A stretch of 55,162 nt of DNA from Nitrosopumilaceae archaeon. Its GTDB lineage: Archaea > Thermoproteota > Nitrososphaeria > Nitrososphaerales > Nitrosopumilaceae. A program made the position numbers and the translations under genes. This document shows positions 4,947 to 17,127 of the stretch, piece by piece. Where the stretch lies: NCBI GenBank assembly GCA_022823825.1, contig JAJEHG010000036.1, forward strand, positions 1 to 55,162, given 5' to 3'. The notes below the pieces were generated by a model that was not told the DNA's origin, searched no databases, and worked only from the letters and a program-made list of their open reading frames with translations. Each line of letters opens with the position of its first letter. Position 1 is the stretch's first letter.

Positions 4947-6075
4947 TCAGAACGTCGGGATCCAGCCCGTACATCTTGGCCTGCTGCCTCCACATCCCCA
5001 CCAGCATCTTGCGCCTGTCTGCCTCGGAGCCGCTGATGCCGTCGGTGGACAGGAACGTCTGGCTCTGTTCAAACGCGCGCCTCATGTCCTCGGTCATCTG
5101 CTCGGTCAGTCTGCCCTTGTTTGTCGTATACCTGGCCTCCATGTCACCCTTGTGTCCCATGAAGAACTGCCTGTACGAATGCGTCATGCATCCGTGGCTC
5201 TCTGCAATCAGCAGCTGGCTGTCAAAGTATGCCCTCAGCGCATAGGGCCGCACCTTTAGCACGCTCCAGATCGTGGGGCGTATGTCCTGGCTTATGGCAT
5301 TCGTGACTAGGAACCTGCCCCCTCCCTCGTCCAGCTTGCGCCACCCCTTGAGGCGGTATCCAAAAGCCACCGTCACTAGCGGCGAGTCGGGCTTTAGGCG
5401 CTCGCCGTGCGCCATCCTCTCTCGCAGATACCCGAGAACGTACTGGCAGCCCTCCTCTGCCAAGAATGTAAAGTACCTTTTTCTGGTCTTGCTCAGCTGC
5501 GGCCTCACCACCACCATCGCGGGGGTTCTTGAGAAACGGGTGTCGGGCCCGTCCAGTACCAGATCCGGCAGGTCCGAGAGCATCAGCCCGTCGCTCCGGT
5601 CCGCGAGTCCCATGACCTGCGGCCTCACCCCCGCAAAGGCCATCATGCTTATGATCGCCCTGCCACGCGGAGGTGCCGCGTCCAGCATCTTCCGGAGCTG
5701 TCCGGCATCCGGTATCCTCTCGTTCTCTATGCTTATCGGCACGTCGGCATTCTTGATCTTTATCTTGCGCCTGATCTCTATGTGGTTGTACTCCAGCCAA
5801 GATTTTATGGCAATTACCATGCCCATGATGTACCCGGGCGCATACTTTTTCTCCTCCATCCACGACACGTGATCCAGCAGTATATTTTCTGCCCTCATCG
5901 GATCGTCTTGCCCCGCCTTTATCAGCTGCCGCGGCGTCACCCCGACCCTGTCGCAGAACAGGTTGAGCCGCCTGAGCCTGACGCTGCAGGTAAGGGTGCT
6001 GGACCTGCGCAGGTTGTCGTGCCACCTGCGCACGTCGGGATCCTCCAGCAGCTTTCTTGGGGGCTCGGTTGCCAT
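4876..6075 (-). CDS. Tyrosine recombinase / integrase
   Basis: 399 aa. Catalytic-domain signatures: box I Arg in AFAGVRPQVMGL (residues ~225), a YALRAYFDSQ segment where the family has HxxR (here Tyr-x-x-Arg), then MGHKGDMEARYTTNKG with the GH and the likely nucleophilic Tyr. An N-terminal SAM-like core-binding region (RWHDNLRRSSTLTCSVRLRR) precedes it. ATG at 6075 is preferred because CTTAAATTAAAA (6101-6112) lies about 28 nt upstream; the frame stays open to 6321, but that extension enters the tRNA gene. Site-specific recombinases of this type insert elements into tRNA 3' ends, and this one is adjacent to tRNA-Val. The C-terminus may be truncated by a frameshift (see 4629-4946). Confidence 0.85.
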   Translation of the reverse strand: MATEPPRKLLEDPDVRRWHDNLRRSSTLTCSVRLRRLNLFCDRVGVTPRQLIKAGQDDPMRAENILLDHVSWMEEKKYAPGYIMGMVIAIKSWLEYNHIEIRRKIKIKNADVPISIENERIPDAGQLRKMLDAAPPRGRAIISMMAFAGVRPQVMGLADRSDGLMLSDLPDLVLDGPDTRFSRTPAMVVVRPQLSKTRKRYFTFLAEEGCQYVLGYLRERMAHGERLKPDSPLVTVAFGYRLKGWRKLDEGGGRFLVTNAISQDIRPTIWSVLKVRPYALRAYFDSQLLIAESHGCMTHSYRQFFMGHKGDMEARYTTNKGRLTEQMTEDMRRAFEQSQTFLSTDGISGSEADRRKMLVGMWRQQAKMYGLDPDVLIASGAQDGGAGRAIRAGRRGWAQ

Positions 6076-6290
6076 TCTGTTCCAGCTCCTGACATTCTGT
6101 TTTAATTTAAGAGAATTCTCTTGGCTCGCCGTTACGGTCCGGGTTTCTTTGAGCTCCTTTTTCTTATAGCCGGGTTTTGTGCGCTTTGCCGTAGCGGGTT
6201 CCGCACCCTGTGCGCGGCCCGGCTTCCCGTCGGACGGTTTGTGATACGACTCGCCGCTTTTACCGTGCTGATTTATATGATTATATAAAA

Positions 6291-6364
6291 TGGGCCGAGT
6301 GAGATTCGAACTCACGATCACCGCCGTGTCGAGGCGGTATCCTAACCAGCTAGACTACCGGCCC
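6291..6364 (-). tRNA. tRNA-Val (anticodon GAC), with C at position 33
   Basis: The 74-nt cloverleaf folds fully: acceptor GGGCCGG/TCGGCCC with discriminator A, D-stem 10-13/22-25, anticodon stem CCGCC/GGCGG around loop TCGACAC, and T-arm GTGAG-TTCGAAT-CTCAC. The anticodon is GAC at 6330-6328. Position 33, almost always U, is C here. CCA is not encoded. The 3' end faces the integrase, the usual arrangement for an element integrated at a tRNA gene. I found no second copy of the tRNA 3' half in the window, so the other attachment site should lie left of base 1 if the element is intact. Confidence 0.93.
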
Positions 6365-6430
6365 ATCGGATCACAAACCTTGGCGCAGGTATTATTAAGG
6401 TTTAACAGGGATGGCCCCTGACGCATCAGC

Positions 6431-7207
6431 ATGGCCGGTAATTTTTCAGACGATTTCAGCGACGAGGAGAGGGGGGGACTGTACAAGGCCATCTACACCA
6501 GGAGGGACGTGAGGTCGCATTTCAGGCCTGGCCGCATAAGCGACGAGACCGTTGCCAGAATCCTCCACGCGGCGCACCACGCGCCGTCAGTTGGCTTCTC
6601 GCAGCCCTGGAACTTTATACTGATAAGGGACGCCGCGACCCGCCGCAAGATAAAAGAGTCCTTTGAGGCAGAGAGGAAGAGGTCGTCTGACATGGTGCGG
6701 GACGATCCGGAGAAAAGGTCGAGGTACCTGTCCTTCAAGCTGGAGGGGATACTGGAGTCGGCGCTCAACCTGTGCGTGACGTACGATCCCGCGAAGTTTG
6801 GCCCGTTCGTGATCGGGAGGTCAAGCATTCCGGAGACGGGGCTGTACAGCGTCTGCTGCGCCATCCAGAACCTCTGGCTGGCGGCCAGGACGGAGGGCGT
6901 AGGAGTCGGATGGGTCAGCATACTCTCAAACGACGTTCTCAGGGAGGCGCTGCAGATACCCGGCCACGTAGTGCCGGTAGCGTACCTGTGCCTGGGGCAC
7001 GTTGACAGGTTTGCGCCAAGGCCGGACTTGGAGGAGGCCGGCTGGCTTCCGAGGCTTGCGCTGGGGGACGTGACGTACTTTGAGCGGTGGCGCAACGAGG
7101 ATGCCGGCGGCGTCTGGGAGGGAATGCAGGACATGATCAGGGACATGGCCGCCGCCGACGGCGTGCCGGCAGGTTCAGGCGCCCGTGCCCCTTCGTCCTC
7201 CGAGTAG
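6431..7207 (+). CDS. bluB: 5,6-dimethylbenzimidazole synthase BluB
   Basis: 258 aa, nitroreductase fold. It carries the BluB pattern rather than a generic nitroreductase one: RRDVRSHF near the start, HHAPSVGFSQPWNFILI (residues ~50-67), YSVCCAIQNLWLAARTEGVG and VGWVSI (~140-165), and CLGHVDRFAPRPDLEEAGW near 200. BluB cleaves reduced FMN with oxygen to make the lower ligand of cobalamin. Thaumarchaeota are established cobalamin producers, so this is metabolically coherent. The promoter is probably ATTAAGGTTTAACA (6394-6407) with a short or absent leader. No other cobalamin gene is in the window. The last ~25 residues are a low-complexity Gly/Ala/Ser tail. Confidence 0.88.
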   Translation: MAGNFSDDFSDEERGGLYKAIYTRRDVRSHFRPGRISDETVARILHAAHHAPSVGFSQPWNFILIRDAATRRKIKESFEAERKRSSDMVRDDPEKRSRYLSFKLEGILESALNLCVTYDPAKFGPFVIGRSSIPETGLYSVCCAIQNLWLAARTEGVGVGWVSILSNDVLREALQIPGHVVPVAYLCLGHVDRFAPRPDLEEAGWLPRLALGDVTYFERWRNEDAGGVWEGMQDMIRDMAAADGVPAGSGARAPSSSE

Positions 7208-7237
7208 GCTTAAATAATTAGCGACATTTCTCACGCT

Positions 7238-7330
7238 GGGCTTGTGGCGCAGAGCCTCTTTGGCGCGCAGTATGGATAGCGTGGTAGCCTCCTAAGTTAC
7301 AGGTCGAGGGATCGAAGCCCTCCAAGCCCG
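7238..7330 (+). tRNA. tRNA-Arg (anticodon CCT) with an ~18-nt D-arm insertion, probable intron
   Basis: Acceptor GGGCTTG/CAAGCCC is perfect; discriminator G; anticodon stem GTAGC/GTTAC around CTCCTAA gives anticodon CCT (7291-7293); T-arm is GAGGG-ATCGAAG-CCCTC. Between positions 9 and 22 there are about 18 extra nucleotides. Removing 7253-7270 gives a normal D-arm, GCGC-AGTATGGATA-GCGT, and a 75-nt mature tRNA. GCGCAG occurs at both edges, so the exact boundaries can slide by up to 6 nt. Non-canonical tRNA introns cut by the archaeal splicing endonuclease are known in Thaumarchaeota. A clean bulge-helix-bulge was not verified by folding. Confidence 0.88.
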
Positions 7331-7367
7331 CTCTTGCTGATACCGCCGGCGGGCCGCCCTGCGCACA

Positions 7368-7459
7368 GTACGGGCTCAGGTCGATTGAAGTGACGTGCCT
7401 AAAATTTCAAAATGCAGGGCATGCTCAGGTACGAATTTGGTTTCGACCTGAGGCTGTAC
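7368..7459 (+). mobile_element. MITE-like 92-bp element, copy 2
   Basis: Identical over 92 bp to the complement of 1920-2011. It starts GTACGGGCTCAGGTCGA, ends with the inverted TCGACCTGAGGCTGTAC, and is flanked by a perfect 8-bp direct repeat, TGCGCACA (7360-7367 and 7460-7467). The target duplication differs from that of copy 1, so these are two independent insertions rather than a duplicated segment. It lies 37 bp downstream of tRNA-Arg and just upstream of the FMN-reductase promoter. No coding capacity. Confidence 0.92.
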
Positions 7460-7506
7460 TGCGCACACGCGCTTTGACTTAAATGAGACGGGCGCGGCCG
7501 CGTGAC

Positions 7507-8043
7507 ATGCGGGTGGTGGTAATATCAGGCAGCCCCAGAAGGAACGCCAACACTGAGACGATGATGAGGTACGTCTACGAATACGCCATGGATAGGAACG
7601 GCGGCGGCGGGAGCACCACCACGTTTGTCAACCTGTCGGAGGGCCAGGTGGAATGTTTTCACGGGTTTGACGTGGAATATGGCGAGGCTACAAAGTCCGC
7701 CGCAAAGGCGATAACGGAGGCCGACGTCTGGCTTGTCGGAACGCCGATCTACAACTCCTTCTTCAGCGGGGCCCTGAAGAACCTCTTTGAGTATATAGAC
7801 TACAAAAAGACGCCGGGGAAGACGGCGGGCATGGCCGTAATGGCGGCAGGCAGCATAGGCTTCACCGACGTGCAGACCGTGCTGACGCAGCTCATGTCGT
7901 ATTTTGGCGTGGTTACAAACCCCAAGGCCGTCTTTATGACCACGGGCGACGTGGCCGACGGCGCCATAAGCAGCGCCGACGCGCAGGCAAGGCTCAGGGA
8001 GATGGTGGACGGGACGCTTGGGATGGCCTCGAAGCTTGCCTAG
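7507..8043 (+). CDS. NADPH-dependent FMN reductase / flavodoxin-fold protein
   Basis: 178 aa. The N-terminal VVVISGSPRRNANTETMM is the FMN phosphate-binding loop of the NAD(P)H:FMN reductase family. GTPIYNSFFSGALKNLFEYID near residues 75-100 is the conserved second flavin-contact region. Such enzymes supply reduced flavin or reduce quinones. ATG at 7507 is chosen because CTTAAATG (7477-7484) lies about 26 nt upstream; the ATG at 7483 would overlap the TATA. The gene is followed after 14 bp by a 41-aa Cys-rich protein. Reduced FMN could feed BluB upstream, but that link is only positional inference. Confidence 0.85.
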   Translation: MRVVVISGSPRRNANTETMMRYVYEYAMDRNGGGGSTTTFVNLSEGQVECFHGFDVEYGEATKSAAKAITEADVWLVGTPIYNSFFSGALKNLFEYIDYKKTPGKTAGMAVMAAGSIGFTDVQTVLTQLMSYFGVVTNPKAVFMTTGDVADGAISSADAQARLREMVDGTLGMASKLA

Positions 8044-8057
8044 GACAGGTAACGTCG

Positions 8058-8183
8058 ATGATGGATCCCGCCGCCAAGATGTGCACGTGCAGGTGCCATT
8101 TCGGCGGGGCCGTAAGCTGCCCGTCCTGCAAGAAGAACCATCCTGACGGACGCGGCAGGAACTGCTGCCACTGCTCCGAATAG
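8058..8183 (+). CDS. 41-aa Cys-rich, probable zinc-binding protein
   Basis: Short gene starting MMDPAAKMCTCRCHFGGA and continuing to SCPSCKKNHPDGRGRNCCHC before SerGlu and the stop. It has eight Cys and three His in 41 residues, arranged CxCxCH, CPSC, then CCHC, compatible with a tiny zinc ribbon or a redox or metal-delivery peptide. It begins 14 bp after the FMN reductase stop, so the two probably share a transcript. I do not recognise a family. Cys spacing this regular is unlikely to arise by chance in non-coding DNA, which supports it as real. Confidence 0.6.
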   Translation: MMDPAAKMCTCRCHFGGAVSCPSCKKNHPDGRGRNCCHCSE

Positions 8184-8243
8184 TTGTTGTCTGAGGCATC
8201 GAGCGGTGACGGACATGGCGCCGAGTCGCGCCTCTGCCGCCTC

Positions 8244-8747
8244 TCATTTCTTGTGCTTTGATGCCAGCATCTTCAGGTTTGCCAGCTCCGCCTTGAGGGT
8301 CTCAATCTGTACGAGCGTCTGCAGGTTTGCAATCTGCCTGTTGAGCCTCTCAATCTCGCTGTCCTTGAGCTTGAGGGACTCCTTGAGCTCCTCAAGGTCG
8401 GCTGCAAGCTCGCTCTGGACGCTCCGCAGATCTGCTATCTCGCCCGGGGCGCCCTCATGGCTCCCGCCCGTCGCCGCCACTGTCAAGCTTTTTTTTTCGC
8501 CGTACTGCAGCACGGTTCCCGCAGGGGCATCGTCATTCTGGTGGTGGTGGTGGATCGAGTGCATGTAATCGGCGCTCTTCTGGGCTATCCAGCAGGTAAA
8601 TACCAGGAACCACATGATTGGAACCGCCATTATAAAGACAAAGTCCAGCACGGGCGCAAAGTCGACAAAGACCGGCCAGAGCACGGTCAGGACCGCCGCA
8701 AAGACGCCGGTCGCCACGGTGGCCAGATGGTTGCCCAGATAGCCCAT
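8244..8747 (-). CDS. Two-helix membrane protein with C-terminal coiled coil
   Basis: 167 aa. Helix 1 is ATVATGVFAAVLTVLWPVFV and helix 2 is VFIMAVPIMWFLVFTCWIA, followed by a His-rich stretch (HSIHHHHQND) and a long coiled coil (about residues 105-160: SELAADLEELKESLKLKD and so on, with LNRQIANLQTLVQIETLKAE). It ends in Lys-rich KHKK. ATG at 8747 lies about 26 nt from ATAAATAG (8768-8776), so it is preferred over the ATG at 8768. No family is recognised; a membrane-anchored scaffold is the simplest reading. The His run could bind metal. Bases 8748-8968 are a divergent promoter region. Confidence 0.7.
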   Translation of the reverse strand: MGYLGNHLATVATGVFAAVLTVLWPVFVDFAPVLDFVFIMAVPIMWFLVFTCWIAQKSADYMHSIHHHHQNDDAPAGTVLQYGEKKSLTVAATGGSHEGAPGEIADLRSVQSELAADLEELKESLKLKDSEIERLNRQIANLQTLVQIETLKAELANLKMLASKHKK

Positions 8748-8968
8748 GGACTGAATCCGGGTGCTCACTATTTATGTGGTATGCGGCCCTGTCCGGAACC
8801 GCCGGCCCGTAGTTTGCCACGCGTCTGTCATACTACATGCTCGTCCATGCCCCCGAGCCAGCGGTTTGTTCCAGAATGGCTGGTTCCCGCCTTCATGCCC
8901 ACGGTTCCAATCGATTTGGACATGGTACATTTCTCAAAAACTTTTAAACCCACGCATGCCCTCCTTGA

Positions 8969-10327
8969 TTGTTGAATGACAGGGGCGCAGGCATGCTTGC
9001 CGCGATACTTGTAGTCGCCGCGGTGTCCGGGCTGCTGTTGCTTGCCACACCGGCAATCACCACGTCCGCGCAGGTCTTTGATGAGAATAACCAAAAGGTA
9101 ATCAAGATAGGAACCTTGGTGACTGACTCCAGCGCGCACCAGTACCGGCTCCAGTCGATGAACATCGCAGTGGAGGACTTTAACGGGGCCCAGAGCGACT
9201 ATACGCTCGAGCTGGTCAACCTTACGATTAACGATCCAAAATACGGCGTATCAGGCCCCGAAAAATCTTCCCGTTCCGGCAATGCGTTTGCCGACGGCTT
9301 TGAGAATTATGACATAACGTACTATGTAGGGCCCATGGGCAGTACCGACACCACGTCAGTACAAGCCCGGCTAGCAGAGATCGAGCCTGCAAATCCAGAC
9401 AAAGACTTTGCGGTAATATCGCCCGCGTCCACAGCGCCCTCGCTGCGCGACGGCACCGACAGCGTATTCAGAATGGCCGTTGCCGACTCGCTGCAGGCAG
9501 TCAGGCTCGCCAACCTGCTGCAGGCAGAGGGCAAAGAGCACGTCGTTTTGGTAGCGTTGAATGTGCTGCACGGCTCCGAGCGAGACGTCTGGTCCGGGGG
9601 ACTAGAAGAGGCGTTTACGGAGAGCTTTGGCGCGGATAAGATTTTCGACACTGTCAGCATGGAGATATTTCACAACGCCACCCATCGTCCCGATGCAGAC
9701 GAGTATGCCGAGTGGGCCGGCGATCTGGATACGGCAGTGTCGGGCCTGGTCGAACAGAACGGCGCGGACAGCGTGGCGGTAATGGTCATGGCCTATGCAG
9801 ACGATCTCAGGAGCCTGGTGGACGCGGTTACGAGGGATGAGTCTTTTGCGCGAAACCTTGGTATGGTAAAGTGGTACGGGCCTGACGGCATTGCGACGCA
9901 TGGAGAGGCGTACGAAGGAACGAATGCGGAAGTCGGAAGATTTTTGAACACTGTAAAGTTTACCGCCACCCAGTTTGCAGGGGAGGAGACCGCAGCGGGG
10001 GCCCAGCTGAGGGCCCAGCTCTTGGAGAGGGGGGTTCTGCAGGATGACATTTCAAACATTTATCTCTATTCATCATATGATGCGATGACGCTCATGGCAA
10101 ACGCCATTGCCGAGCGCGACAGGGGCGGCAACACAAAGACGGTAAAGACGCTGATCTATGAAATTGCACGCGGCCCAAGCGGCGTCGGGGTGCTGGGAGA
10201 CTATGACTTTGACGAGGTAGGAGACATTAACCAGCCGCTGTCATACAAGCTGTGGACGGTTGTGCTTGATTCTAACGGCGAACCGGGCTGGGTTGACGTT
10301 GCAGAGACGTACAAGATCTGCAGGTAA
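8969..10327 (+). CDS. LivK-like extracellular substrate-binding protein
   Basis: 452 aa. An N-terminal hydrophobic segment (LAAILVVAAVSGLLLLATPA) acts as signal or membrane anchor; there is no lipobox Cys. Then comes a type I periplasmic-binding fold like branched-chain amino-acid/urea/amide receptors (IKIGTLVTDSS, residues ~45; YYVGPMGSTDT, FAVISPASTAPSL ~150; YLYSSYDAMTLMANAI ~370). The start is taken as TTG at 8969, about 26 nt after CTTTTAAA (8941-8948); ATG at 8993 is an alternative that still keeps the anchor. No permease or ATPase gene adjoins it, so it may partner a distant ABC system or act as a sensor. The ligand cannot be predicted. Confidence 0.8.
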   Translation: MLNDRGAGMLAAILVVAAVSGLLLLATPAITTSAQVFDENNQKVIKIGTLVTDSSAHQYRLQSMNIAVEDFNGAQSDYTLELVNLTINDPKYGVSGPEKSSRSGNAFADGFENYDITYYVGPMGSTDTTSVQARLAEIEPANPDKDFAVISPASTAPSLRDGTDSVFRMAVADSLQAVRLANLLQAEGKEHVVLVALNVLHGSERDVWSGGLEEAFTESFGADKIFDTVSMEIFHNATHRPDADEYAEWAGDLDTAVSGLVEQNGADSVAVMVMAYADDLRSLVDAVTRDESFARNLGMVKWYGPDGIATHGEAYEGTNAEVGRFLNTVKFTATQFAGEETAAGAQLRAQLLERGVLQDDISNIYLYSSYDAMTLMANAIAERDRGGNTKTVKTLIYEIARGPSGVGVLGDYDFDEVGDINQPLSYKLWTVVLDSNGEPGWVDVAETYKICR

Positions 10328-10361
10328 GCCCAGTACACGCCCGGCGACTGGCACGGCCTGA

Positions 10362-10859
10362 TTATACCCCCGCATCCAGCAGGGCCGCGAAGAGCAGTAT
10401 GGCAACGGATATCGCCACGGTGACCTCCCCCAGTATTATGATCTTCTTTCGCAGCCTCTGGACCTCCCGCGTCGAGAGCGCGCCGGACATTATCCTCTCC
10501 TCCACGCCCTTGGAGATTATCCTCACGTGCGCCACGTATGCCGCGACGAGCGCGGCCACCAGCCCCACCTTGACTGCCAGAAACGTCCCATAACTGGTGG
10601 CCATCAGGAGCTCGGGCCTGGCAAGCAGGGCGTGCGAGCTGTACAGCCCGGTGGCCACGAGTATCCCAAGCGCGGGGATGGCCACCATGTTGAACCTCCT
10701 GCCCACGCGTATCATTATCTTCATCCTGTCCTCCACCGAGTCGGCCATCGTCTTTAGCAGGGGGGAGAAGACAACCCCGATGAACAGCGAGCCCCCCACC
10801 CAGATTGAGGCCGATATTAGGTGGACCCATGTCAGGAGGGCCTGTTCCAGCGCGGACAT
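10362..10859 (-). CDS. CopD-like four-helix membrane protein
   Basis: 165 aa with four predicted helices and the segment WVHLISASIWVGGSLFIGVV near the N-terminus, characteristic of CopD/DUF2269-type membrane proteins in which His and Trp of helix 1 are conserved. The third and fourth helices flank a basic loop (RIISKGVEERIMSG). CopD-type proteins are linked to copper import or handling, relevant in ammonia-oxidising archaea that rely on copper enzymes, but no copper ligand set is proven here. ATG at 10859 is chosen from GATAATATC (10882-10890); ATG at 10874 is too close to it. Convergent with the binding-protein gene, 34 bp apart. Confidence 0.65.
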   Translation of the reverse strand: MSALEQALLTWVHLISASIWVGGSLFIGVVFSPLLKTMADSVEDRMKIMIRVGRRFNMVAIPALGILVATGLYSSHALLARPELLMATSYGTFLAVKVGLVAALVAAYVAHVRIISKGVEERIMSGALSTREVQRLRKKIIILGEVTVAISVAILLFAALLDAGV

Positions 10860-11005
10860 CGTGACGTCCAACACGTACAGGGGATATTATCTATTCGGGG
10901 GGGAGGGTCGGAATCTGCCCCAAACCGGACGCCGGGGCAGGCCGCACGGCCGGCGCGGCCAGCCGGCTTGAAACCTTTTTTAATAATTCGTGGGCCGGTA
11001 GCGCA

Positions 11006-11500
11006 ATGGAGCTGCAGAGCAAGACGACCGTGTACGTCGCGATAGGCAGCATGCTCGCGCTGATGGGCGGCATCATATACTATGCAAGCCTGGACAACGA
11101 GTCGCTGGAGCAGGCGGAGATCGAGCTCGGCTCCGTGACGCTCAGGGACGTCAACACCGTTACAAACCAGGCGGAGTTCGAGGTGGAGTTCGTGGTGTCC
11201 AACCCGAGCGAAAAGACGTTCACCGTCGCCAGCATCGGGTATCAGCTGTACGGTGACGGGACACTGCTGGGATCTGGGCAGTACTCTGTGATTGACATCG
11301 CGCTTCCCGGCAGGGCGGTCTTCTACTCCGGGGCCGTGGTGCCCCTGAAGAACACGTTCGTCCTGGACAAGGGTTCGGTTGGCGAGGACACCTACGACGC
11401 GATGATAGACGGGCGCATCACCAACTTTGCGGCCGAGGGCATACTGACCACCCAGACCTCGTGGAGCACCATCGACAAGGAGTTCAGGACGGGATTCTGA
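11006..11500 (+). CDS. Membrane-anchored LEA14/WHy-like protein
   Basis: 164 aa: one N-terminal helix (YVAIGSMLALMGGIIYYA) followed by an extracellular beta domain with LEA type-2 character (AEIELGSVTLRDVNTV; EFEVEFVVSNPSEKTFTVAS; GYQLYGDGTLLGSG). The LEA2 fold is an Ig-like sandwich associated with stress tolerance or envelope assembly. The strand layout parallels the gene at 53391 (phrases VSNPSEKTFTV and VYNPNQRSVIV), so the two are probably paralogues. A TATA-like TTTTTTAATAA at 10976-10986 gives a leaderless ATG at 11006. Specific function unknown. Confidence 0.65.
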   Translation: MELQSKTTVYVAIGSMLALMGGIIYYASLDNESLEQAEIELGSVTLRDVNTVTNQAEFEVEFVVSNPSEKTFTVASIGYQLYGDGTLLGSGQYSVIDIALPGRAVFYSGAVVPLKNTFVLDKGSVGEDTYDAMIDGRITNFAAEGILTTQTSWSTIDKEFRTGF

Positions 11501-11667
11501 CTGACCGGCGGAGGCGGCGGTAGCAGGACCGACGCCGCGTCCCTGTCTATCGCACGACGAGGGCTAGGGACAAAATTGTTATTTGGGCTCGCTCCCGCCC
11601 TTTTATGGCCCTACGGAATGCACTGAGCGTGCAGCGGCCGCCATGACGGGAGGGAGGATCCCCGTAC

Positions 11668-14385
11668 ATGGTGGTAAGGACAAGAAAGGCCGGGGTCGCC
11701 GCTGCCGCCACAGAGCAGCAGCAGGATGTGTCTTCCGCGCCAAAAAAGAGGCGCAAGGTTGAGAAAAAGACAGACGAGCCTGTAGTCGTAAACTCAAAGG
11801 AGCTGTGCATGACTCGGTTCAGGGAGTGGTGGTCCACGGACGAGCTCTCGGCCATAATATCCCAGATCAACCCCGACATTATCATGATGTTTTCAGACGA
11901 CAACAAGGACGTCTTCAACCCCGACAGGCTCTCGGAGATATTGTACGACACGGTCGGCTCGCGCTTTCTGCGGAACATTGAGAACGACACGACAAAGCGC
12001 AGGCTCTTTCTGGATCTTATACTTGCGACCGTAACCGAAAAGGGGCTTGCAAAGCCCGACGACATAATCGGGGCCGTACGGTCCGCAGTGCGCACCTCGA
12101 GGAAGGACTCCGTGAACCGCATATCCGACATACCGGCCCTGGAGATTACCAACAACCTCGGGCTGGCCCTCGCCGGCGTGCTGGGACTGCCTCCGTCGGT
12201 GGCAGAAAAGGAGTACGTCGAGTCGCTGCCGGACACTGAGATCATAGTCCCGCACACCCAGCTCAACCCCCTGTATGACTACCAGTTTACGACCGGGATC
12301 GTCGTGCGCAGGATGCTGGAGGGGACCATGGTTGAGAACGACAAGGAGGCAAAGCGCAGGATGATATCCATACCCACCGGCGCCGGCAAGACCCGCATGC
12401 TTGTCGAGACCATAATAGAGTGGCTCAACGACGGCAAGCCCTCAAAGAACGCGCAGCAGCGGGACTCCAGGTTCATACTCTGGATCGCCCAGTCCAACGA
12501 GCTCTGCGAGCAGGCGTTCAGCACGTTCAAGACCGTCTTTGAGGACGTTGGCCGGCGCGGCACCACGCTGCACATGCACCGCTTCTGGGGGGCGGGGGGC
12601 GCGCTGCCCACCCTCGGCATGGACGACCTGCTTGACGAAAAGGGGATAATCGTGGCCACGATACAGTCACTCTTCAAGATAATGGAGCAGCCCGAGCAGC
12701 TCCGGACGCTCGGCAGGCTGACTGCCTGCATCATCATAGACGAGGCGCACCACGCCGTCGCCTCGTCCTACTCCAGCGTGCTGCGGGAGATGGGCTTTAA
12801 CTGGGACAACAGAAAGTCGGAGATATCCGAGTGGGGGATCATACTCATCGGCCTGACGGCCACGCCGTTCCGGGGCAAGGGCTCGGGCATGGACACCGAC
12901 AGGCTCAAGCGGCGCATGGGCGGCACGTACTTTCCGACCATACCCTACTCTGAGGAGCTGAGGCGCTACAAGCCCCACGCCATAGTGGACTGCCAGACCA
13001 TTGCATACACGAAGGATCCGATAAAGATCATAGGCGAGAACTCGTATGACCGGGACGGACACATCGAGGACGGGGACTTTAGGTGGACCATCACGCGCAC
13101 CGCACAGTTCGAGGAGGAGGGGTCGCTGCCCGCGGACGCCGTGAAGGAGGACGGCGTCGTCACGTACGATGACAACACTCAGGAGGGCGCGGACGGCGAC
13201 GGCGCGGACGGCGACGGCGCGGACGGCGGCCCGGGGGACGGGACGGACACGCTTCCAACCTGGACGTACGACGGGCAGAGAAACATAGTACACGAGTTCA
13301 AAAAGCCGGGGTACTACGAGGTGGCGCTGTCCGTGAAGGACATCCACGGCAACGAGTCAGTCACGACGGCCCGGGTTACAGTCGAGCCCAGGCCGGCGGA
13401 GTCGAAGATGACGCCCGAGGAGCGCCAGAAGAACCTGTACCACCGGCTCATAATGCGCAACATCTTGTGTGACGTATACCACAAGGTGCTCTCCTCGAGC
13501 AACTACGAGCTGAGCACGCAGGACGTCAAGTATATGGCGACCTTTGGCGAGTTCCGCAGGGAGACGATCAAGGAGATAGGGCGCGACAGGTCCCGCAACT
13601 CCATGATAGTCAGGGAGATAAAGCGCCTCAACGGGCTGGGCAAGCGCAAGATACTGTTCTTTGGGTGCAGCGTGGCGCACTCGAGGCAGATTGCGATGCT
13701 GCTAAAGGTGCTGTACCACATGAAGGTAAAGTACGTGGACTCGAAGATGGACCTGGACTCCCGCGTGAACGCGATAGAGCAGTTCCGTTCGGGGGACCTG
13801 GAGGTGCTGTGCAACTTTGACGTCCTGACCACGGGCTTTGACGCGCCCAACATAGACTGCGTGTTCGTGGGCAGGCCCGTCAAGAGCACGCTGCTGTACA
13901 CGCAGATGATAGGAAGGGGCATGCGCGGGACTAGGAGCGGCGGAACCGAGAGCATGCTGCTGGTGGACGTCGACGACAACTTCCAGCTGCGCCAGAACTA
14001 TGACATGGTCCAGGTGGAACTTGGATGGAAGATCTTCAAGGACTTTTGGAAGACGTGGGAGGATCCGTACGACGAGGGCGCGGAGGCGGCGGCCGGCGAC
14101 GCAGAGGGGGATGCCATGCTTGCCGTAAAGAGGCAGAGGGCGCGCGGCGGCAGGATAGAGGACAGCGACGTGTGGGAGGACGACGAGGACGAGGACGGTG
14201 CCGGCGACGACGAGGACGCCGGCCTGACGTACGCCTGCTCCGGATGCAAAAAGGAGGGGCGCGGCATACCTGAGATACAGAGCCTGTTTGGAATCGAGGG
14301 GGCGGGGCAGCTGCTGGCAGAGTGCCTGCGGTCCGGCGATCACTCCATGCTGCCATCCGAATGCATGGAGTGCAGGAGCAGGTAG
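11668..14385 (+). CDS. SF2 DEAD/DEAH helicase with an inserted PKD-like domain
   Basis: 905 aa. Helicase motifs in order: Walker A IPTGAGKTR (~234), DEAH in IIIDEAHHAVAS (~356), LTATPFRGKG (~395), QMIGRGMRGTR (~745), so it is an SSL2/type III restriction-like translocase. Between the two RecA lobes, residues ~448-575 read as a PKD/Ig-like domain: SYDRDGHIEDGDFRW at its start and FKKPGYYEVALSVKDIHGNE at its end, with an Asp/Gly tandem repeat (GADGDG, 13189-13228) in a loop. The C-terminus has an Asp/Glu-rich stretch and a four-Cys zinc ribbon (CSGC ... CMEC). The N-terminus has a basic PKKRRKVEKK. The ATG is preceded by GGGAGGGAGG. No methylase or specificity gene adjoins it, so a stand-alone repair or defence role is open. 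Confidence 0.85.
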   Translation: MVVRTRKAGVAAAATEQQQDVSSAPKKRRKVEKKTDEPVVVNSKELCMTRFREWWSTDELSAIISQINPDIIMMFSDDNKDVFNPDRLSEILYDTVGSRFLRNIENDTTKRRLFLDLILATVTEKGLAKPDDIIGAVRSAVRTSRKDSVNRISDIPALEITNNLGLALAGVLGLPPSVAEKEYVESLPDTEIIVPHTQLNPLYDYQFTTGIVVRRMLEGTMVENDKEAKRRMISIPTGAGKTRMLVETIIEWLNDGKPSKNAQQRDSRFILWIAQSNELCEQAFSTFKTVFEDVGRRGTTLHMHRFWGAGGALPTLGMDDLLDEKGIIVATIQSLFKIMEQPEQLRTLGRLTACIIIDEAHHAVASSYSSVLREMGFNWDNRKSEISEWGIILIGLTATPFRGKGSGMDTDRLKRRMGGTYFPTIPYSEELRRYKPHAIVDCQTIAYTKDPIKIIGENSYDRDGHIEDGDFRWTITRTAQFEEEGSLPADAVKEDGVVTYDDNTQEGADGDGADGDGADGGPGDGTDTLPTWTYDGQRNIVHEFKKPGYYEVALSVKDIHGNESVTTARVTVEPRPAESKMTPEERQKNLYHRLIMRNILCDVYHKVLSSSNYELSTQDVKYMATFGEFRRETIKEIGRDRSRNSMIVREIKRLNGLGKRKILFFGCSVAHSRQIAMLLKVLYHMKVKYVDSKMDLDSRVNAIEQFRSGDLEVLCNFDVLTTGFDAPNIDCVFVGRPVKSTLLYTQMIGRGMRGTRSGGTESMLLVDVDDNFQLRQNYDMVQVELGWKIFKDFWKTWEDPYDEGAEAAAGDAEGDAMLAVKRQRARGGRIEDSDVWEDDEDEDGAGDDEDAGLTYACSGCKKEGRGIPEIQSLFGIEGAGQLLAECLRSGDHSMLPSECMECRSR

Positions 14386-14466
14386 CCTGCCGACCGGGAG
14401 GCCGCCTCCGTGCACGGCCCTGCAGCGGCGGCGAACCTGACCCTTTTTTTAGAGCTGCCACACAGT

Positions 14467-14988
14467 ATGGCAGTGGCCGACGGTCTCTTGGTGGGGAGGT
14501 TCCAGCCGTTTCATCTGGGGCACATGTCCGCGCTCCGGTTTGCGCTCGGCACGGCGGGCCGGCTCTGGATCGGAATAGGCAGCTCCAACAGGCCCCCGGA
14601 GGCGGCAAACCCGTTTACGGCAGCGGAGCGCAGGGAGATGATACTCTCCTCGGTGGACGCCGGCACGGCTGCGCGCATTACGATATACGACATACCGGAC
14701 GTGGAGAACCACGTCAGGTGGCTTGACCTGATCGACGGGATCGTGCCCCCCTTTGGCGTGGTATTTACAAACGACCGGCTGACGGAGCGCCTCTACTCTG
14801 AGAGGAGGAGTGGCGCCGTCAGGGCAGTCCGAATCCCGTTACTCAACCGGGACGAGCTGTCCGGCACCCGCATCCGGGACATGATCGGGGGCGGGGCCCC
14901 CCCGTCCGACTGGCAGCGGCTTGTCCCGTCAGGGACGCGGGACGTCCTGCGGCGGTGCGACGCTGAGTCGCGCCTGGCGAATCTCTAG
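14467..14988 (+). CDS. nadM: Nicotinamide-nucleotide adenylyltransferase (archaeal NadM type)
   Basis: 173 aa, normal for archaeal NMNAT. GRFQPFHLGH near residue 10 contains the HxGH nucleotidyltransferase motif. The second signature, SGTRIRDMI (~135), replaces bacterial ISxTxIR. The enzyme adenylates NMN to NAD+ in the cytoplasm. ATG at 14467 follows a CTTTTTTTA element by about 20 nt. The reading frame extends upstream to a GTG at 14410, but that would overlap the promoter. It follows the helicase gene by about 80 bp on the same strand. Confidence 0.92.
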   Translation: MAVADGLLVGRFQPFHLGHMSALRFALGTAGRLWIGIGSSNRPPEAANPFTAAERREMILSSVDAGTAARITIYDIPDVENHVRWLDLIDGIVPPFGVVFTNDRLTERLYSERRSGAVRAVRIPLLNRDELSGTRIRDMIGGGAPPSDWQRLVPSGTRDVLRRCDAESRLANL

Positions 14989-15022
14989 TTATAAATAAAG
15001 CAGGACGGCATTCAGAGCAAAC

Positions 15023-16168
15023 ATGGAATATCTGGCGATGCTTCCGGGCCCCACAAACGTACCCAACAGGGTCATGAGGGCCATGCTGGCGCCCATGATA
15101 AACCACCGCAGCGACGACTTTGTAGAACTGTACACGGACGTAATATCAAAGACCCAGCAGGTGTTCGAGACCACGAACGACGTGGTCGCCCTCTCCGCGT
15201 CCGGAACCGGGGCCGTCGAGGCGGGCGTCGTCAACCTGGTCAAAAAGGACGACAAGGTGATCATACCGGTAAACGGCGAGTTCTCAAGCAGGCTGGCCCA
15301 GCTCATCGAGGGGCAGGGCGCAAACGTGGTAAGGCTGGAGACGCCGCCGGGGCAGAACGCAACGTTTGAGCAGGTGAGGGAGGCCTTTGACAACAACCCC
15401 GACGTAAAGGCGTTCTACGTGGTGCACAACGAGACCTCGACTGGAACCATGGTCAAGTATCTTGACCGGGTGTCCGACCTGACGTCGAGAAACGACGCGT
15501 TCTACGTGGTGGACTCCGTCTCGCTGCTGGGCGGAGCCGAGCTGCCCGTCGACAAGTGGAACGTAGACGTCTGCATGACGGGCGCGCAAAAGGCGATTGC
15601 GGCGCCGCCCGGCATATCCCCGATATCAGTAAGCCCGAGGGCCAAGAAATACATGATCGAGAACCCGCCAAACACGATGTACTTTAACCTGGCACGCTAC
15701 TTCAAGTACTACGAGGAGTCGAGGCACACCCCGTTCACGCCGGCCCTTCCCCTGCTGCACGCATACAGGGAGGCGCTCTCTATACTGCTGGAGGAGGGAC
15801 TGCCAAACGTGTTCCGGCGCCACCGGACGTGCTCCGACGCGCTGTACTCGGGGCTCAGCGCCATAGGGCTGATCCCGTTTGCAAAGGAGGAGGACAGGTC
15901 GATATCCATAGTGGCATTAAACTATCTGGAGGGGCTGGAGGACAAGACGTTCCGTGACACGCTTGCGGCAAAGTTCAAGGTTCTTGTTGCAGGCGGCTTT
16001 GGCAACCTCAAGGGCAAGGTCTTCAGGGTGGGGTGCATGGGTGAGGTGAGCCCCTACCACGTGATGCGGACCATATCTGCCATATCCTCCACGCTTGCCA
16101 TGATGGGGTACGACACCGACCCGCAGGCCGGGCTAAAGGCGGCCGAAGAAGAGCTAAAGGCGCTCTGA
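15023..16168 (+). CDS. Class V aminotransferase (serine-pyruvate/alanine-glyoxylate type)
   Basis: 381 aa, full length for PLP fold type I class V enzymes. The N-terminal LPGPTNVPNRVMRAM is the substrate-binding start of alanine-glyoxylate/serine-pyruvate transaminases. ALSASGTGAVEA (~57) binds PLP phosphate, YVVDSVSLLGG (~166) carries the PLP Asp, and TGAQKAIAAPPG (~187-198) holds the Schiff-base Lys. Likely substrates are serine or alanine with glyoxylate or pyruvate; exact specificity cannot be told. TTATAAATAAAG at 14989-15000 gives a leaderless ATG at 15023. Confidence 0.9.
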   Translation: MEYLAMLPGPTNVPNRVMRAMLAPMINHRSDDFVELYTDVISKTQQVFETTNDVVALSASGTGAVEAGVVNLVKKDDKVIIPVNGEFSSRLAQLIEGQGANVVRLETPPGQNATFEQVREAFDNNPDVKAFYVVHNETSTGTMVKYLDRVSDLTSRNDAFYVVDSVSLLGGAELPVDKWNVDVCMTGAQKAIAAPPGISPISVSPRAKKYMIENPPNTMYFNLARYFKYYEESRHTPFTPALPLLHAYREALSILLEEGLPNVFRRHRTCSDALYSGLSAIGLIPFAKEEDRSISIVALNYLEGLEDKTFRDTLAAKFKVLVAGGFGNLKGKVFRVGCMGEVSPYHVMRTISAISSTLAMMGYDTDPQAGLKAAEEELKAL

Positions 16169-16302
16169 CGGCGCACGCCGGAGGTGCCCAGCCGGGGGCC
16201 GAGTGACAGCAGCACCGCAAACGGGCGAGCGGCAGCCGTCCGGCGCCACACGGCCACCCGAGCGCGTTTGATTTAATATGTGGAAATTCGAGAGCAGGCA
16301 CG

Positions 16303-17127
16303 TTGACTTTTGAGAAGGGGTCGTTGATTCTAGTAGATTATACGATGCGCGCCAAGGACAGCGACGCCGTCATCGAGACCACCAGCGAGGAGGACGCCAA
16401 GGCCGGCTCGATACACGAGCCCGACGTTTTGTACGTGCCCCGCCTCGTCTCCGTCGGGGAGGCCAACTATCCGGTCCTCAAGGGCTTTGCCGAGGGGCTC
16501 GTGGAGATGTCGGTGGGAGAGAGCAAGGCCATAGAGGTCGGGCCAGAAAAGGCGTGGGGCGCGCGCGACCCGAAGAAGGTGCGCACGTACCCGCAGCGCA
16601 AGCTCGGCAAGGACGCCGACCGCTACTCGGTGGGGGACCACGTGGTCATTGACGACAAGGCGGGCATAATCAGGTTCATGAGCTCCGGCAGGGTGCAGAT
16701 CGACTTTAACCACGTGCACGCCGGCAAGACACTCGTGTATGACGCGACCGTCAAGGCGCTGCTTGACAAGCAGGATGACGTCATTCGCAGCATACTGCTG
16801 GCCAGGCTGAGCATCAAGGAACCAGAGTTTGCGACGGATGCGGACGTCCTCTCGATCACGCTAGCGGGGGAGATACTGGAATCCATGGAGCTGCCTGCCG
16901 CAAAGCGCAGGGTCGCGCGCGACATATTCAAGTTCGTGCCTGATCTGGCTTCCGTGCGGTTCGTGGAGAGCTTTGAGAACAAGGCAAAGGCCGCCGCAGA
17001 GGCGCAGCAGCAGCCTGCTCCCCCAGCCGCCGATGACGCCGCCAGTGGCGATAGTACTGCCGATGACGCCGCCACCACCACCACCCCAGACAGCGATGCC
17101 GACTCCGGTGACAGCAGGGCTGCCTAG
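16303..17127 (+). CDS. SlyD-like FKBP-type peptidyl-prolyl isomerase
   Basis: 274 aa. The SlyD-type layout is clear: LILVDYTMRAKDSDAVIETT strand, LKGFAEGLVEMSVGESKAI flanking the active site, an insert-in-flap chaperone domain (~residues 85-150, including VGDHVVIDD and DFNHVHAGKTLVYDATVKAL), then a C-terminal ~110-residue extension ending in an Ala/Asp/Thr-rich tail. The enzyme isomerises Xaa-Pro bonds and assists folding; archaeal members share this arrangement. The start is TTG at 16303, about 26 nt after GATTTAATATG (16269-16279). The low-complexity tail is typical of high-GC proteins here and has no recognised function. Confidence 0.88.
   Translation: MTFEKGSLILVDYTMRAKDSDAVIETTSEEDAKAGSIHEPDVLYVPRLVSVGEANYPVLKGFAEGLVEMSVGESKAIEVGPEKAWGARDPKKVRTYPQRKLGKDADRYSVGDHVVIDDKAGIIRFMSSGRVQIDFNHVHAGKTLVYDATVKALLDKQDDVIRSILLARLSIKEPEFATDADVLSITLAGEILESMELPAAKRRVARDIFKFVPDLASVRFVESFENKAKAAAEAQQQPAPPAADDAASGDSTADDAATTTTPDSDADSGDSRAA

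Follow-up and report, generated by a model that had tools for sequence, protein, structure and literature searches.

The gene at positions 11668..14385 (+ strand) of the window, the 55,162-nucleotide stretch of a Nitrosopumilaceae archaeon contig analysed in this work, encodes a 905-aa SF2 helicase/translocase with a PKD domain inserted cleanly between its two RecA lobes, and long relatives of this protein are found next to DISARM genes. PKD domains are typical of secreted or surface proteins. The motor core is of a kind already known; what is new is the PKD insertion and the linkage to DISARM. The best reading of the data, which we hold with a little more belief than doubt, is that of a RadD-like DNA translocase, whose PKD domain was probably gained within an archaeal DISARM system and which later became standalone. 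The analysis suggests that the window protein is part of an unrecognised branch of archaeal immunity.

The gene was delineated as an open reading frame with Pfam matches and is present as a single copy in its own genome (68 contigs, 89.6% complete). All of its parts lie on the + strand. An N-terminal helical domain (residues 43-180, 11794..12207), with a mean majority-residue share of 0.46 in 103 aligned rows, is followed by the RecA1 lobe (residues 200-425, 12265..12942), delimited by the Pfam match ResIII (220-402) and the alignment. The PKD domain (residues 434-576, 12967..13395) was located by profile, alignment and structure prediction and contains an acidic low-confidence loop (residues 484-526, 13117..13245), located by structure prediction and alignment. 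The RecA2 lobe (residues 585-800, 13420..14067) was assigned from the Pfam match Helicase_C (657-753) and the alignment. A zinc module of the form CxxC ... CxxC (residues 857-902, 14236..14373), already claimed for the C-terminus by an earlier sequence-only reading of the window, retains its cysteines in 91 or 92 of the 103 rows. These PKD-form rows comprise the window protein, the helicases of five DISARM-linked loci, and 97 of 133 protein ids that were obtained; the homologue searches scored 7995 best candidates each, and the best 120 of 267 and the best 120 of 1398 matches were listed. The motifs of an SF2 motor are intact throughout: Walker A (motif I) PTGAGKTR (residues 236-243, 12373..12396; P236, G238, G240, K241 and T242), the DEAH box (motif II; residues 358-361, 12739..12750), the TAT motif, and motif VI QMIGRGMR with its arginines (residues 746-753, 13903..13926; Q746, G749, R750 and R753) are conserved in 103/103 rows at each position tested.

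The SF2 core resembles that of RadD (YejH), which provided the best Foldseek match (8h5y, E 2.9e-14), followed by UvsW and XPB, as well as the best PDB sequence match (6jde, E 3.4e-12). The best NCBIfam model was also that of RadD (NF053632), with 87.1 bits against an equivalog cut-off of 720; the window protein is therefore RadD-like but not a RadD, and it differs from RadD in having the PKD insert as well as an additional helical domain at the N-terminus. In PADLOC, the protein matched type IV and type I restriction helicases as well as PbeA, and it gave weak matches to BrxH and PsyrT. PbeA, from the Dnd-Pbe phosphorothioation defence, is a related ResIII-type helicase, and its PADLOC model is nearer to an insert-free cousin (L014, E 1.5e-23) than to the window protein (E 2.3e-8). 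PbeA has been reported to carry a PLD domain together with Res and helicase domains (PMC6459918); a Pfam scan at E 10 found no PLD domain in the window protein, which sets it apart from PbeA. The proposal of the sequence-only reading that the gene represents a new helicase type was thus too strong, since its core belongs to the known RadD/UvsW/XPB/PbeA-like kind.

The location of a PKD domain between the RecA lobes, by comparison, was read correctly from the sequence, as demonstrated by profile search, alignment and predicted structure. The insert is a beta-sandwich of the PKD fold according to structure prediction and fold search, and its profile matched PKD domains in the PDB at E 2.1e-21. 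The search with PF18911 gave a split outcome: a relative, P0067, scored 37.0 against a cut-off of 27, whereas the window protein alone reached 22.3 and remained under it. In the alignment, 87-140 residues separate the lobes in 15 PKD forms compared with 10-22 residues in 21 insert-free relatives (9 archaeal short forms of 529-566 aa, 2 archaeal forms of 614 aa, and 10 bacterial forms of 895-1835 aa); the homologues surveyed thus carry at this site either the same PKD domain or a short linker, and no other helicase subdomain. A helical insertion between the lobes occurs in Hef or RIG-I; such a subdomain was rejected here because the insert is all-beta. The full-length predicted model has a pTM of 0.52, too low to fix the position of the PKD domain relative to the DNA cleft.

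The insert is conserved across the family. The inter-lobe stretch measures at least 84 residues in all 103 PKD-form rows, with no loss in any of them, and S459 and W473 are invariant (103/103). The PKD signature has been given as WxFGDG (PMC3458885); the WDFGDG motif is absent from the insert, in which the invariant W473 is followed by x-I/V/L and not by DFGDG. The mean majority share of the PKD scaffold is 0.48-0.59, compared with 0.65-0.69 for the RecA lobes (103 rows). The dN/dS values of the PKD scaffold between the window and L032, L033 and L034 are 0.17, 0.32 and 0.16, respectively, the last of these from a comparison close to saturation of synonymous change, and those of the RecA lobes are 0.06-0.16 in the same three comparisons. 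The acidic loop of the window protein comprises 50 residues (481-530) with a net charge of -15, and the predicted model indicates that residues 484-526 are probably disordered. The length of this loop ranges across the 103 rows from 0 to 75 residues, the long form occurring mainly in the window's lineage; because the median is 11 residues, a long acidic loop does not characterise the family, and acidic-loop autoinhibition as a mechanism common to the whole family was rejected.

Collagenases, KIAA0319L/AAVR and archaeal surface proteins, all of which contain PKD domains, are secreted or surface proteins, as entry titles also indicate. The PKD domain of the window protein is unlike theirs in that it lies within a predicted intracellular motor and lacks WDFGDG. 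In DDX1-type helicases, a beta-sandwich (SPRY) is inserted into the SF2 core inside RecA1, which is a similar arrangement with another domain and at another site. The fold searches returned no PKD-inserted helicase among the matches listed, a result that excludes nothing. Neither a PKD-with-helicase architecture nor a PKD helicase in DISARM was found described in the open-licence literature searched. The genome of the window contains two more PKD_4 matches, which fall in open frames of 752 and 540 aa: G000:C33:24954-25220, above the curated cut-off, and G000:C46:1376-1510, which is not.

The sequence-only reading had also directed attention to neighbouring defence genes. These are absent among the genes scanned around the window copy but present beside five of the six long PKD helicases with any flank (L037, L039, L040, L041 and L181; 1012-1415 aa). 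By adjacency of both DrmA and DrmB, these five count as DISARM components; DrmC, assigned by PADLOC, accompanies them in four loci (L037, L039, L041 and L181). PADLOC identified DrmA in L037 (3.3e-257), L039 (2.5e-226), L040 (2.4e-244) and L041 (1.9e-232) and DrmB in the same four loci at E 1.5e-66 to 2e-73, while in L181 a DrmA fragment, cut by the contig end, and DrmB were identified by tblastn. Counted from the first possible start, the helicase gene and drmC share 4 nt in L041, and gaps of 1 nt and 8 nt separate them in L037 and L181, respectively. The L039 helicase converges on drmC from the opposite strand and lies outside the drm operon, and in L040 no drmC is recognisable between drmB and the helicase. 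A methyltransferase adjoins three of the five helicases: that of L041, where Vsr also occurs, matches DrmMII and, more strongly, type II enzymes, and L037 and L039 each have a type II methyltransferase. In the sixth locus, L038, the contig starts inside the helicase (1195 aa present), and no drm gene occurs in the 2.6 kb downstream.

Several further features of these loci were noted. The L038 contig (1-6181) is labelled Gammaproteobacteria (ARS1012) and may be mis-binned archaeal DNA; its helicase ends in a weak, sub-cutoff match (E 3e-4) to the EVE domain, a modified-base reader, and CARF-type-like and Cas4-type-like frames were seen downstream by eye only. A gene read from its sequence as RNase J-like, with the copies linked by tblastn, occurs in L037 (14968-16371), L041 (15171-16574) and L039 (20948-21907), and also near an insert-free short helicase in L184 (9759-11162) and L238 (4569-5969), suggesting a common integration hotspot in the family.

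DISARM I has been described as requiring DrmD and DrmMI, and DISARM II as requiring DrmE and DrmMII (PMC9252829). Compared with these two classes, the PKD-inserted RadD-like helicase appears to occupy the slot of DrmD or DrmE. The PKD helicases showed no DrmD/DrmE match in PADLOC at E 0.001 (L041, window, P0096 and P0067) or in NCBIfam at E 0.01 (window and L037), a negative that extends to DrmE only if these libraries contain a model of it. No other large unassigned gene was seen in the L037, L039 and L041 clusters among the part of the ORFs scanned. Given its intact motifs, the PKD helicase may plausibly act as a second motor in DISARM. Among the 12 DrmA/DrmB loci from the class and family surveys, five contain a PKD helicase; in the other seven the slot is filled by an insert-free 614-aa relative in two (L192 and L194), and none is shown in five. 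A universal role of the helicase in DISARM was rejected on the basis of these 5/12 loci. The more distant loci L243-L247 have no helicase of this family within the stretch available, which ends about 3.2 kb after drmC in L244 and 0.46 kb after drmC in L247, the latter too soon for a telling negative. In L194 (8601-18568) and L192 (8748-18390), a 731-aa ATPase, read from its sequence as GHKL-type, lies upstream of drmA, with the 614-aa helicase at the opposite end.

The window copy itself is standalone, with DrmA and DrmB neither nearby nor in the genome: at 89.6% completeness, a profile search gave no match for DrmB, and the best DrmA match of 18.5 bits is not convincing. Ten neighbouring ORFs were scanned, and the eight with Pfam matches correspond to a nitroreductase, an FMN reductase, a receptor-type ligand-binding protein, a CopD-like protein, a cytidylyltransferase-like protein, aminotransferase V, FKBP and Fe-ADH; ten further ORFs of the window include nine metabolic, transport, signalling or RNA-processing genes and one without a match. 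The order of several neighbours around the helicase is kept in L032, L033 and L034. No drm genes were seen at L035, L182 and L183 either, which are standalone loci of the Cenarchaeum type. A same-genus relative, L188 (G180; 6041-16639), shares the nitroreductase, the gene at 11006, CopD, NMNAT and the aminotransferase with the window (6431-16168) and has no PKD helicase there; about 1-2.5 kb from the shared neighbours it carries an insert-free helicase, a GHKL-type ATPase and a PAPS-reductase-like gene, as read from sequence. The window neighbourhood may be a defence-gene hotspot.

The distribution of the family was assessed at several taxonomic levels. In the class, 52 of 400 genomes matched at E 1e-3. 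At E 1e-20, 22 of 250 genomes of the family had a match, the PKD form being present in 12 and insert-free forms only in 10, as told apart by length, span and alignment; among 398 genomes sampled across the phylum, the nine with a match at E 1e-40 all belonged to the window's family. DrmB was detected at E 1e-10 or better in nine of the 250 family genomes, namely in 5/12 with a PKD helicase and 4/238 without (Fisher p 1.2e-5, a value that ignores the relatedness of genomes). Since six of these loci supplied the sequences for the DrmB profile, their top rank is partly by construction; an earlier Fisher p of 1e-7 was dropped because its DrmB cut-off had been chosen post hoc and the profile came from the same loci, and the count at E 1e-10 was used. 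Among the best 80 of at least 492 relatives on viral contigs, the top one is 36% identical over 198-772 and, with about 390 codons, too short to contain a PKD domain, and the L182 insert had no match in phages at E 1e-3. The 10 of 76 plasmid records listed for the insert-free L194 helicase as a query were all annotated as DEAD/DEAH or type I R helicases. A precomputed PF26348 label on P0123 was not confirmed. The PKD-helicase pairs P0023/P0054 and P0048/P0086 agree within each pair in the length of the longest contig (21640 and 222494, respectively), hinting at several paralogues per genome.

The history of the insertion was approached with a FastTree phylogeny of 124 helicase cores, from which the PKD domain was removed and which was rooted on the bacterial forms. 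The PKD forms are united in this tree (support 0.88), and the DISARM-linked L039 is the first branch within their clade (0.91). L037, L041, L181 and L040 form one clade next to a group with the window and the Cenarchaeum-type forms (P0078 and P0082); the known standalone forms fall in this neighbouring group. The insert-free 614-aa DISARM helicases (L192 and L194) group with the archaeal short forms (0.93) and not with the PKD forms. Because DISARM-linked forms occur at two places in the tree only, the nesting of standalone within DISARM-linked forms rests on the position of L039, and the descent reading also spans intermediate branches of unassigned gene context. The simplest reading, for which the tree gives moderate support, is that the PKD domain would have been gained in a DISARM-linked helicase, with detachment following later.

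The insert-free relatives have associations of their own. The archaeal short forms adjoin GHKL-type ATPases, with phosphorothioation-type genes in several loci, as read from sequence; the helicase of L184/L014 matched PbeA and Dnd-restriction models, and the ATPase neighbour in L184 gave MzaB/sacsin-type matches. Of the three bacterial cousins scanned, two have a TmtA-like N-terminal part, and one of these two has a sacsin-type ATPase match. L042 and L044 are bacterial fusions of about 1550 aa that join a TmtA-like part (with the sacsin-type ATPase in L042) to a helicase relative, mirroring the separate archaeal gene pair of ATPase and helicase.

The standalone copies, including that of the window, could instead be chromosomal repair or recombination helicases akin to RadD, UvsW and XPB with no role in defence, the DISARM-linked forms resulting from a separate recruitment; we regard this as a real possibility, short of an even chance. 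It would account for RadD being the best structural and sequence match, for the position of the window copy among housekeeping genes kept in L032-L034, for the purifying selection evident from dN/dS, and for the restriction of DISARM-linked forms to two places in the tree. The patchy occurrence of the PKD form, in 12/250 family genomes, is unlike that of a core repair gene, and both the DISARM-linked first branch of the PKD clade and the GHKL-type and phosphorothioation-type genes that were read from sequence beside the insert-free kin argue against this alternative.

The PKD domain could also be a tolerated passenger, that is, a folded inter-lobe spacer with no binding role. Its somewhat lower conservation compared with the RecA lobes and its variable loop fit this reading, which nevertheless appears unlikely in view of the retention of the domain in every row, the invariant S459 and W473, and scaffold dN/dS values far under 1. 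Surface proteins are the usual hosts of PKD domains, and a group of PKD-annotated genes in a sponge-associated thaumarchaeon has been mentioned as a possible host-interaction factor (PMC6697440); that the window protein is itself secreted or exposed, with its PKD domain in the usual adhesive job, is highly improbable, since its N-terminus, inspected by eye, has no hydrophobic leader and its intact motor needs ATP. Fusion of two genes through misassembly or gene calling might be suspected in an assembly of 68 contigs and 89.6% completeness, yet the frame is single and open, and an identical join recurs in the 103 PKD-form rows and in the syntenic L032-L034; an artefact or chimera was rejected on this evidence, its probability being negligible.

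Under the favoured reading, a RadD-like translocase with a DISARM past, the PKD insertion would have arisen when the helicase was an additional part of a DISARM-type anti-virus operon in Nitrosopumilaceae-type archaea, and the window gene would be a later standalone descendant of that DISARM-linked helicase. The motor would bind foreign or unprotected DNA, hydrolyse ATP, and translocate or remodel the DNA. The PKD domain, for which the sequence-only reading had suggested protein binding or DNA clamping, would stand out at the hinge between the lobes as a rigid module for docking or clamping that engages partner proteins (DrmAB in the DISARM-linked forms) or the duplex, so that lobe closure may be linked to binding at this domain. 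The long acidic PKD loop of the window's lineage might in addition cover the DNA site as a plug that can be withdrawn. DrmAB has been described as autoinhibited by a trigger loop of roughly 50 residues and activated by 5'-overhang unmodified DNA (PMC9142583); by analogy, the published trigger loop of DrmA and the acidic PKD loop of the window's lineage may be comparable as plugs. A bolder and rather doubtful extension would recognise a third DISARM class in ammonia-oxidising archaea, in which the PKD RadD-like helicase replaces DrmD/DrmE, its detached descendants act as single-gene immunity factors in sponge symbionts, and the PKD domain operates between the RecA lobes as a switch that docks partners or clamps DNA, with the acidic loop as an autoinhibitory plug in the window's lineage.

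If the favoured reading is true, a typically extracellular fold now works inside an intracellular DNA motor, between its moving lobes, and the family would be a natural test case for how inter-lobe accessory domains control SF2 motors. Searches for DISARM would need to be widened, because PADLOC and NCBIfam gave the scanned PKD helicases no DISARM label. The PKD-inserted motor would then mark an unrecognised archaeal branch of DISARM, and one part of a multi-gene immune system would be seen to persist alone in symbiont lineages.
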